Positions 14,908-18,693 of a DNA stretch of 43,628 nucleotides are shown one piece after another (the first letter of the stretch is position 1; every line of letters begins with the position of its first letter). The position numbers and the translations under genes were made by a program. The notes below the pieces were generated by a model that saw nothing but the letters and a program-made list of their open reading frames with translations, searched no databases and had not been told where the DNA came from. Where the stretch lies: positions 1 to 43,628 of the forward strand of contig JABDAO010000013.1 in NCBI GenBank assembly GCA_013289095.1. Reading direction: 5' to 3'. The DNA comes from Bacteroidota bacterium (GTDB lineage: Bacteria > Bacteroidota > Bacteroidia > Palsa-965).

Positions 14908-15490
14908 TGGAGCTAAAGCCAAAAATGGGAGGCATCTCTACCCCGCGCTTTAGCGCGGGGTGAAAGCTAACCTACATGGGCTTTAGCCCAAATCAAAAGC
15001 GCAGGTCAGTGCACAGAACGCTCAGCCAGGTCTATACGCCAATTCGTCATTTGGGCTAAAGCCCAAAATGGGAGGCATCTCTACCCCGCGCTAAAGCGCG
15101 GGGTTATTTATTTCTGTAAGTTGGGTTTCTAAAATCACACTCGATCAGGCTATATCAAGCCCATATTTGCACACCTTTAATAAATAACCCCGCGCTTTAG
15201 CGCGGGGTGGAAGCTAACCTACATGGGCTTTAGCCCAAATCAAAAGCGCAGGTCAGTGCACAGAACGCTCAGCCAGGTCTATACGCCAATTCGTCATTTG
15301 GGCTAAAGCCCAAAATGGGAGGCATCTCTACCCCGCGCTAAAGCGCGGGGTTATTTATTTCTGCAAGTTGGGTTTCTAAAAACAAAAACGGATTAAGCTA
15401 TCTCAAGCCCATATTTGCACACCTTTAATAAATAACCCCGCGCTTTAGCGCGGGGTGAAAACTAACCTACATGGGCTTTAGCCCAAAAAC
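14908..15490. repeat. REP/BIME-like array of nested palindromes (247-248 bp tandem units)
   Basis: Two palindromes alternate. P1 is ccccgcgctttagcgcgggg and P2 is tgggctttagccca; both are centred on GCTTTAGC, and the TT/AA centre gives each an orientation. Forward P1 lies at 14941-14960, 15188-15207 and 15436-15455. Forward P2 lies at 14977-14990, 15224-15237 and 15472-15485. Reverse P2 lies at 15052-15065 and 15299-15312, and reverse P1 at 15084-15103 and 15331-15350. Each unit reads P1+, P2+, P2-, P1-, and the unit repeats with a period of 247 then 248 bp for about 2.3 copies. The first P1 has the left flank of a reverse copy and the right flank of a forward copy, which marks a recombination junction. 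The array lies between the phosphatase gene and a Y1 transposase, as in REP/RAYT systems. Confidence 0.85.
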
Positions 15491-15680: not shown

Positions 15681-16103
15681 ATGCCACACCTGCGAATCTG
15701 GATACATGCTGTTTGGGGAACAAAAGAACATCGACCCTATTTGCAGCCTGATTTAAAAAAGCAGGTTATCGAACATATTTTCGAAAATGCAAGGGCCAGG
15801 AAGCTACATCTGATTCGGGTAAATGGACATGTAGATCATCTTCACTGCCTCTTGTCATTAAATGCTGATCTCAGCATAGCAAAAACGATGCAATTAGTAA
15901 AGGGAGAATCAGCCTTTTGGGCAAACAAAGTAAGAATCATAGCTCCTAAATTTGAATGGGCAGAGGAATATTTCGCGTCCTCCGTAAGCGAATCAATGAT
16001 TGACCGGGTTATCTCATACATAGATAACCAGGAAGAGCATCACAGAAAAGTAACTTTCAAAGATGAATATGCCAAATTCCTCACTGCTCATAAGTTGACT
16101 TGA
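15681..16103 (+). CDS. IS200-like / REP-associated Y1 transposase (HUH nuclease)
   Basis: This 140-aa protein has the usual length and motifs of the Y1 transposase family (IS200/IS605 TnpA and the RAYT branch). The HUH motif is H-L-H within NGHVDHLHCLL (near residues 50-58). The catalytic Tyr is expected in ISYIDNQEEHH (near 116-126), where the downstream Gln/His-rich helix is also conserved. Such enzymes nick and join single-stranded DNA at hairpin ends. No orfB/tnpB is next to it. The palindrome array ends about 190 bases upstream, so it is probably a domesticated or REP-mobilising enzyme acting on those hairpins; that link is an inference. The ATG at 15681 fits the family N-terminus (HLRIWIHAVWGT). 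No frameshift or missing key residue is seen. Confidence 0.85.
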   Translation: MPHLRIWIHAVWGTKEHRPYLQPDLKKQVIEHIFENARARKLHLIRVNGHVDHLHCLLSLNADLSIAKTMQLVKGESAFWANKVRIIAPKFEWAEEYFASSVSESMIDRVISYIDNQEEHHRKVTFKDEYAKFLTAHKLT

Positions 16104-16152: not shown

Positions 16153-16249
16153 TTAAGGGCATCTCTGATAACCCCGTTTTCTTGACCTCTCCCTGACCCT
16201 CTCCCAAGGAGAGGGAATGTTTGGAAGAGGTTATTAGAGATGCCCTTAA
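16153..16249. repeat. 97-bp MITE-like inverted-repeat element
   Basis: The ends are 21-bp inverted repeats with one mismatch (16153-16173 and 16229-16249; core AAGGGCATCTCT). Inside is a second hairpin, CCCTCTCC-CAA-GGAGAGGG (16197-16215). There is no coding capacity. It lies 50 bases after the transposase stop codon. A partly similar pyrimidine-rich hairpin element occurs at 19527-19656. Confidence 0.7.
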
Positions 16250-16499
16250 GCTAAAACCCGATCCTGGCTCTCTTTTAACCCGGCCTCGGTTTAGCCGAAG
16301 GCGGATTATTTAATCATATCCATTCGCTTTAGAAAACCAAGACGATGTATTACAGATCAATTTTTTATTCCAATTTACATACACCATGGGTCAGCACAGG
16401 CTGAACCTCATTCTCTGCTTCCAGACCCAGCCAAATGGGTACTGAAAGCAGGGCTGAATCCGAAAACAAATTCTATTTTTACTTAAACTTTCAACACCC
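16250..16499. other. Intergenic spacer before the GNAT gene
   Basis: I see no gene, strong hairpin or clear promoter here. TATTTTTA near 16471-16478 is a weak -7 box candidate about 22 bases before the ATG. Confidence 0.4.
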
Positions 16500-17054: not shown

Positions 17055-17473
17055 ACCCTGAAAAACGGAGGTATTAAGATAACCACTAAGTTCAGACAAG
17101 GCAACGAACACTTAGCAGAAAGGATCTTAGCAAAACCAACCCAAAATAAAAGTTGTCCAGCACAACACCCCTCCCATCCCTGCAACTTACCATTCCCGGT
17201 ATTTTATCAAAACTAAGATAATCAGTTCAAAAATTAGTCCAATTTGTACTGGCTTTGCCTGCAAAACCACCTGCGCTCTAAAACCCATACAGCGCTGGGC
17301 TTGCGTCAACTATCAAGGCGATCAATAGGATAAAAAAACACGTTTTCCTGATAATTAATAGTTTCTCTCCCCGGTCCTGTTCATCAGACAAATGCATCTT
17401 AAAAAACGAAAAATAACACGACTTCATGTAATTTCTTTTGAAGTGTTCCGTTATTAATATCTGAAAGTGTAAT

Positions 17474-17481
17474 TATCTTTG
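17474..17481 (+). promoter_or_regulatory. Candidate -7 box upstream of the 33-aa ORF and palindrome array
   Basis: TATCTTTG is a perfect match to TAnnTTTG, about 23 bases before an ATG at 17504. No TTG is found at the correct spacing. A transcript from here would run through the 42-bp palindrome array. Confidence 0.4.
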
Positions 17482-17503
17482 CCCGCTTAAAAGATCGTTT
17501 AAA

Positions 17504-17605
17504 ATGAAAATGCTTCAAAAACAACAAATACAGTTCGAAGAAAACCTGGTTACGGGTGCTGGGCGTTGTTCGGTAATTAGCAGGTGTAGTACAAAAGGGG
17601 TTTGA
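17504..17605 (+). CDS. Possible 33-aa micro-ORF of unknown function
   Basis: An ATG following a good -7 box opens a 33-codon frame. The peptide starts MKMLQKQQ, contains the segment ENLVTGAGRCSVISRC with two Cys, and ends at TGA. It has no signal peptide. The short Lys/Gln-rich start with a Gly/Cys/Ser-rich tail is loosely reminiscent of peptide-product precursors, but no maturation genes are nearby and 33 codons can arise by chance. It may instead be a leader ORF, or not translated at all. Confidence 0.2.
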   Translation: MKMLQKQQIQFEENLVTGAGRCSVISRCSTKGV

Positions 17606-17682
17606 GGGACAGCTTTGGAATACTAAAATGCGTTTATGTCATTTCCTTTCATGTTGCTGTGAAAAAAATTCTTTTTGTAAGC

Positions 17683-17718
17683 TTTTCAAACCTTTTTGAT
17701 ATCAAAAAGGTTTGAAAA
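17683..17718. repeat. 36-bp perfect palindrome (first array unit)
   Basis: The first unit of the array is a perfect palindrome over 36 bases, centred on GATATC at 17698-17703. It can form a hairpin or cruciform and is the only unit with complete symmetry. As RNA it would make a strong 5' hairpin. Confidence 0.9.
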
Positions 17719-17975
17719 CATACCTCTTAGAACCATTTTGATATCAAAAAGGATTTGATTCACACCTTTCAAAACCATTTTGACATCAAAAATATCTCAA
17801 TTGCTACATTTTAAAACTGTTTAGATATCAAAAGATTTTTAATTCAACCCATTTAAAACCTTTTAGATATCAAAAAGGTTTTAATTCAAGCAGTTCAAAA
17901 CCATTTTGACATCAAAAAGGTTTTGATTCACATCATTTAAAACCGTTTTGATATCAAAAGGGTTGTAAATACTCT
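17683..17975. repeat. Seven palindromes phased at exactly 42 bp
   Basis: Seven imperfect palindromes of the form AAAACC-N-TTTTGATATCAAAA-N-GGTTTT occur in a row. Their central GATATC (or GACATC) hexamers start at 17698, 17740, 17782, 17824, 17866, 17908 and 17950. The spacing is therefore 42 bp every time, close to four helical turns, so all sites face the same side of the DNA. Hexamers 3 and 6 share the variant GACATC. The flanks (GATTCACAYC-like) are less conserved. The array ends about 95 bases before the ATG of the 207-aa gene at 18070. Stop codons in all frames make coding unlikely. It resembles an operator/iteron array or intrinsically bent DNA with phased A-tracts. Confidence 0.9.
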
Positions 17976-18069
17976 GGATAGATTTTTAGAACATTCATTA
18001 TTTTGGAAATGAGCCAGTTAAGAACCGATTGGCCATCAATTAAGTCACGAACAATTAAATAAAAACACC

Positions 18070-18693
18070 ATGTCAAAAGCAATTTTAAAATTTCATGGGT
18101 TAACTCCGGCACAAAAGCTGGCCCGTGCAAGAGAGATAGTAGCCAAAATGACCGGTAATACTAATTTTACAAATCCGACGCCTTCTCTGGCATCAATATC
18201 CGCAGCCATAGACGATGCCGAAAAAGCATTGGAAGCCGCTGGAGGTGGCGGGCCAATTTCAAAGAAAGACCGAAACAACAAGGTAGCCTTGGTAGTACTA
18301 CTGATGACGCAGCTGACAAGTTACATCAACGCCGTGACAGATGATCCGGTAAAACTTCTCACTACAGGTTTAACGTTGAAGACAGAAAAAAAACGTGGTA
18401 AACGTGTCTTCAGGGCTACACCCGGCAAAAAAGCCGGGACTGTGGCAATCGAAGCTCCGCCGAACAAGGCCCGAGCCCATAAATGGCAATACGGGTATGA
18501 TCCAGATACCCAGTCGAATGTCGTTCCAGCCAATATCGTTTGGTTAGATTTACCGATTACTTCGGCCTCGCATACTGCTATCGAAAACCTCACCACCGGT
18601 CATAAAGTATGGATACGCCACGGATATGTATATTCAGGCCCCAAAGGAGGTGACTATCCTTATGGTGATCCGGTTTCGGTTATAGTGCCTTAG
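18070..18693 (+). CDS. 207-aa protein of unknown function with Fn3-like C-terminus
   Basis: There is no signal peptide. The N-terminal half is helical: LTPAQKLARAREIVAKMTGNTNFTNPTPSL near residues 9-40, then an AIDDAEKALEAA helix, a Gly-rich turn, and a helix resembling VALVVLLMTQLTSYINAVTDDP near 72-95. After a basic linker the C-terminal part (about 130-207) ends in a fibronectin III-like pattern (GHKVWIRHGYVYSGPKGGDYPYGDPVSVIVP). Proteins with the same MTGNxNFTNPxPSL opening and a Fn3-type tail are, to my recollection, scattered in Bacteroidota genomes as hypotheticals; I cannot check this here. It stands alone directly behind the 42-bp palindrome array, which is the best candidate for its control region. 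No catalytic residues are recognised. Confidence 0.7.
   Translation: MSKAILKFHGLTPAQKLARAREIVAKMTGNTNFTNPTPSLASISAAIDDAEKALEAAGGGGPISKKDRNNKVALVVLLMTQLTSYINAVTDDPVKLLTTGLTLKTEKKRGKRVFRATPGKKAGTVAIEAPPNKARAHKWQYGYDPDTQSNVVPANIVWLDLPITSASHTAIENLTTGHKVWIRHGYVYSGPKGGDYPYGDPVSVIVP

Follow-up and report, generated by a model that had tools for sequence, protein, structure and literature searches.

A helically phased tandem array upstream of an FN3-family gene in Bacteroidota

Most members of a gene family coding for proteins of about 210 amino acids are preceded, tens to hundreds of bp upstream, by a tandem array that spans about 300 bp and does not code for protein. The sequence of these arrays turns over quickly while their position, length and helical period persist, and the view that array and downstream gene form one module conserved across Bacteroidota is well supported. 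One such pair lies in the window, i.e. the whole stretch of 43,628 nucleotides analysed here, corresponding to contig C13 in a MAG that is incomplete (2.95 Mb, 62%). The features of this locus are as follows.

17226..17428, + strand: outer leader, common to the C11 copy only; the C8 copy starts at about 17429, so the left end is variable
17429..17682, + strand: leader that accompanies the array in each of its three genomic copies, with 8-11 differences per 250 bp; non-coding as far as seen
17683..17968, no strand: tandem array of seven 42-bp units (four helical turns each) with GAYATC palindromic cores; TRF score 256; unit order the same in the C11 and C8 copies
17683..17718, no strand: unit 1, palindromic without mismatch over 36 bp (over 64 bp in the C8 copy)
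17969..18069, + strand: gap between array and gene; the 37-nt promoter-like block or TTAACCG motif of congeners is absent here in exact form
18070..18693, + strand: gene of the 207-aa protein, with a four-helix N-domain (about residues 10-97) and an FN3-like C-domain (about 110-207); the query for the family

The window array and its gene-less copies

The sequence-only reading of the window had described palindromes at an exact 42-bp step in front of the 207-aa gene. This step is confirmed, as the GAYATC centres start at 17698, 17740, 17782, 17824, 17866, 17908 and 17950. Autocorrelation of the array gives a self-match peak of 0.57 at lag 42 against a background of about 0.28, and TRF reports a period of 42 with 6.7 copies. 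None of the seven units carries an insertion or deletion despite their diverged sequence, and unit 1 is indeed a perfect palindrome over 36 bp; of 18 possible pairs between the arms, units 1 to 7 form 18, 12, 9, 13, 16, 14 and 16. As single-stranded DNA, the array folds far more strongly than shuffled sequence (z = -9.8). Rfam returns nothing for it at the curated threshold, only sub-threshold chance matches to AT-rich hairpins. The units align over their full length and leave no spacers, unlike the CRISPR design of conserved repeats with unrelated spacers. A consensus scan of the region gives no support to the promoter that had been proposed at 17474.

Two further copies of the array are found in the same genome, at C11:34214-34951 (96%) and C8:56890-57356 (96%, stopped in unit 6 by the contig end). 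Both keep the diverged units and their order and share 250-450 bp of leader, and the 207-aa gene is absent from both. Between window and C11 there are 4 differences in the 257 positions of units 1-6 and 11 in the 250 of the inner leader. Because the diverged units keep their order in three copies, recent slippage, which might have explained the array away, did not make the units. The expectation that the array would stay with its gene family holds only in part, given the gene-less copies of the window array. In the C8 copy the right arm of unit 1 is rewritten to match the left arm, yielding a 64-bp perfect palindrome, which looks like what hairpin template switching would leave. Downstream of the C11 copy, at a distance of 0.8 kb, there is another array of 42-bp units that is unrelated to it (L010 6270-6484).

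The surroundings contain further repeats and reading frames. A short ORF inside the repeated leader (MKMLQKQQIQFEENLVTGAGRCSVISRCSTKGV, window 17504-17605) shows changes among the three copies that include replacements, so there is no evidence for coding. Window positions 14940-15487 and 15681-16103 hold 2.2 copies of a 247-bp tandem repeat, which has strong hairpins (ACCCCGCGCTTTAGCGCGGGGT, GGGCTTTAGCCC) and adjoins a Y1 (IS200-like) transposase gene; together they look like a REP/RAYT-type pair. At 1.6 kb upstream of the window array there is a Y1_Tnp gene, which is distinct from the 207-aa family. The dispersed MITE-like repeat CATCTCTAATAACCCC...GGGGTTATTAGAGATGC occurs at window 16157-16254 and at L010 3508-3596 and 5464-5564, is also seen near arrays in L094, L099, L114 and L117, and comes directly after the array copy in C11.

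Sequence searches for the window palindrome found no relatives in the order. We rejected the 26 genome matches and one viral match to the palindrome pattern, which are site pairs, short repeats or coding repeats and not 42-bp arrays of the window kind. In unrelated bacteria (Arcobacter, Obscuribacter and others; L024, L027, L030 and L049) paired TTTGATATCAAA-like sites lie 34-40 bp apart in AT-rich stretches, apparently just before genes. These pairs are unrelated to the window array and resemble operators of a widespread regulator.

Period and position are kept, sequence is not

Arrays of this kind are abundant in the genome. TRF, applied to 1.32 Mb for arrays of at least 2.5 copies and missing those below about 70% identity, reports 83 tandem arrays, 72 of which have a period of 21, 42, 63, 84 or 126 bp (21n). 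When they are pooled, self-match reaches 0.70 for a lag of 21 and 0.81 for a lag of 42, compared with 0.27-0.30 if the lag is one base longer or shorter. The 21n arrays are intergenic with a median length of 294 bp, their orientation to neighbouring genes is random and many are flanked by converging genes. The codon-position test is significant (p < 0.05) for 4 of 57 arrays, which corresponds to the chance level. Their unit sequences form 16 multi-member families and 11 singletons, and MITE-like flanks are found on arrays in this species. Each gene-linked array has its own array family that includes gene-less relatives. The largest family, GGGAACATGTCGGGAAGCTTA (L100 3174-3616 and 12 other arrays), contains ACATGT and AAGCTT palindromes 10-11 bp apart; several of its members share flanking repeats of about 300 bp and 80 bp, i.e. 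they are part of a composite dispersed element. At unit length 21, palindromicity is seen in 7 of 63 arrays, and the excess at 42 is inflated by repeated half-units. The palindrome is not supported as the essential feature; it is a trait of the family of the window array and not of the class, most arrays of which are not markedly palindromic.

The 207-aa protein alone has no match in Pfam, NCBIfam, PADLOC or PHROGs, while 10 of 16 family members match fn3. Its structure model (pLDDT 88) comprises a four-helix N-domain followed by an FN3 fold; a search for structural relatives of the N-domain found none. Neither sequence nor structure reveals a DNA-binding fold in the family, and a HUH domain is absent. 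Six full members are present in this genome, each congener has 7-12 matches, and members occur in 49 of 395 genomes of the class as well as in other classes of the phylum; a search of plasmid and phage collections found none. In 26 loci no neighbour gene recurs beside the family gene, including any motor ATPase/GTPase, NTPase or replication gene. Within the genus, the members of the family are strongly basic, with a median pI of 9.8. Two array-less neutral homologues had hinted at basic charge as a correlate of arrays, which we rejected on a wider set: array-linked members in other families can be acidic, and charge does not track array presence.

That homologues of the 207-aa gene would be preceded by arrays of the same phase is borne out well beyond the window locus. 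All six members in the own genome have an array at most 0.9 kb upstream. In three congeners an array lies upstream of 14 of 19 homologues and downstream of 2 of 22; in other families and classes of Bacteroidota the numbers are 37 of 49 upstream and 5 of 49 downstream (Fisher 4e-11). This is further supported by 20 loci of about 16 kb, in which an upstream 21n array is found at 13 of 15 family genes compared with 12 of 189 other ORFs (p = 4e-12). These counts use genes called near arrays by simple ORF rules, in genomes that are partly incomplete. In 479 kb of other congener sequence we found one genuine 21n array, and the other arrays in the family loci have periods from 15 to 366 bp, with one of 12 at 21n. 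About a quarter of the family members are without a detectable array. In a Marinifilum contig, a 21-bp unit is repeated about 17 times (L045 572-947) in a stretch that lies in no ORF of at least 60 codons.

The claim that spacing is more constrained than sequence, and is helical, likewise holds well beyond the window. The best period is within 1 bp of 21n in 6 of 6 arrays of the own genome, 15 of 15 of the genus and 33 of 37 from other families, and the remaining best periods of 40, 61, 61 and 124 correspond to multiples of 20-20.7 bp. In other genomes, 21, 42, 63 and 84 are the prevailing periods, and 20/40, 22, 41/82, 43/86, 61 and 62/124 are also found, so that all gene-linked periods are multiples of 20-22 bp. 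The unit sequences share nothing at 50-70% protein identity, and only a trace is left at 77-79%. A shared sequence for one dimeric protein is thus not supported, as the units have no common sequence even between close homologues.

Curvature, the array-gene gap and rival explanations

We estimated DNA bending with a wedge model. The modelled bend per 84 bp peaks at 70 degrees for a unit of 21 bp and is 48 and 60 degrees for 20 and 22 bp; native DNA gives 42 degrees, and the same units dephased to 18, 19, 23 or 24 bp give 21-35 degrees. Shuffling the units at constant length does not lower the bend (z about 0). The array geometry therefore comes from the period, and the model gives no sign of selection on curvature itself. 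The proposal of bending by phased A-tracts as such fails accordingly, the curvature being no higher than composition predicts at the same phase. The arrays share with curved upstream activating DNA a predicted phase-coherent curvature upstream of a gene, but they have no A-tract preference, owe their curvature to the tandem period whatever the unit, extend over about 300 bp and are tied to one gene family.

In 11 of 26 congener loci the interval between array position and gene contains a 37-nt block (TTTGTCTCGGGAATGCCATCTCGTTTGTTTAACCGTA) or its TTAACCG core (0.3-0.5 expected). The block resembles a promoter placed downstream of the array, although it differs from the published Bacteroidetes promoter consensus, which was found in none of the array-gene gaps.

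The array could be the DNA target of the FN3-family protein or a partner, which would polymerise on one face as ParR-type adaptors do on plasmid centromeres and co-evolve with its own array. ParR/parC centromeres and replication iterons also have tandem repeats of about two helical turns beside a gene, with locus-specific sequences. The presence of one gene beside one array per locus is consistent with this, as are the separate array families with gene-less relatives, the basic proteins of the genus and a fixed helical phase that fits one-faced assembly. However, the hallmarks of these systems are an adjacent motor ATPase/GTPase or replication gene and a DNA-binding adaptor on the repeats, whereas the module has no motor, NTPase or replication neighbour, occurs in several copies per genome and shows no known DNA-binding fold. 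Together with the acidic array-linked members in other families and the complete change of units at 55-70% protein identity, this makes a protein target rather unlikely. We consider it very unlikely that the repeats are transcribed and act as an RNA antitoxin before a toxin gene, by analogy with type III toxin-antitoxin systems (ToxIN, CptIN, TenpIN). Such systems have repeats upstream of a ToxN, CptN or TenpN toxin, a terminator in between and processing of the repeats to the RNA antitoxin. The order of a tandem array directly upstream of one small gene is the same here, and the window array with its leader folds well as RNA (z = -7). Against this, a terminator on the gene strand is found in one of 53 array-gene gaps (shuffled 0.6), the arrays have no consistent G/C skew, and many in this genome are flanked by converging genes. 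The window protein, with four helices and FN3, matches neither a ToxN-like endoribonuclease nor any other toxin or defence protein. The unit sequence is not conserved among close homologues, and RNA leaves periods locked to helical turns unexplained.

Selfish or mutational repeats might instead be tolerated upstream of the family, the 21-bp unit reflecting the mechanism that makes them (slippage or hairpin template switching) and not a function. This is in agreement with 72 arrays in 1.32 Mb, multiplied without the gene and with MITE-like flanks, and with the apparent template switching in the C8 copy. REP/RAYT systems likewise combine one gene and an adjacent repeat with gene-less dispersed copies; their hallmark is a Y1 HUH transposase encoded with the repeat, whereas this family is not a HUH transposase and its repeats form tandem arrays in helical phase, many of which have no palindrome. 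Bacterial VNTRs or minisatellites are also intergenic tandem repeats upstream of genes, but here the period is fixed at 21n across the phylum with one gene family, and the units are diverged, not identical. In relatives, moreover, 21n arrays are nearly confined to the region upstream of the family, a pattern not expected from neutral spread, and the other arrays in the family loci do not share these periods. Neutral or selfish repeats account for the way arrays have multiplied in this species, but they leave the directional link seen in relatives unexplained, and as the full account they are decidedly unlikely. Repeats coding for 7 or 14 residues of small or decayed proteins would give multiples of 3, as 21 and 42 are, and many arrays in this genome do lie in open frames. 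The probability of this account is close to nil: stops interrupt all six reading frames of the window array, there is no codon-position bias, and gene-linked periods of 20, 22, 41, 43, 61 and 62 bp rule out a codon frame and refute coding repeats as a general explanation. The helical explanation, with 10-11 bp per turn, fits the observed periods, while the codon explanation, with multiples of 3, fails.

A possible role as phased DNA

In the reading that we prefer, and to which we give an about even chance, array and gene are one module in which the array acts in cis as phased double-stranded DNA and thereby sets how the gene is expressed. With 10.5 bp per turn, a unit must be at least 21 bp long to contain whole turns in a whole number of bp. 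Any unit repeated at 21n bp places the same feature on one helical face, so that bends add and binding sites align whatever the sequence. The likeliest role would be to offer, upstream of the promoter of the gene, a platform for binding that is phased, curved or one-faced and could set expression through a nucleoid protein, contact with RNA polymerase or the gene product itself. In this species the arrays have also spread without the gene. A role in serving the gene is countered by the gene-less arrays of this species (66 of 72), which have random orientation; at least here, an array therefore need not serve a gene. More tentatively, and with somewhat less than an even chance, the arrays may represent a class of elements in which only DNA geometry is selected. 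Freely changing sequence at integral turns would then form a scaffold, curved or one-faced, that supports expression or assembly of the FN3 family across Bacteroidota, and could spread alone.

Our literature search covered open-access papers and found no earlier description of the array-gene module, which we provisionally regard as new to science. Intergenic tandem repeats have been mentioned in Planctomycetota, without a period (PMC9426551).

For this genome, the 21n arrays make up most of the tandem-repeat content and explain at least one contig end. Conservation is usually read from sequence; here period and position are kept and sequence is not, which would hide the element from searches based on alignment. 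An unannotated FN3 family gains its first genomic context, and the module offers a direct test of whether cells select the helical phase of DNA itself.
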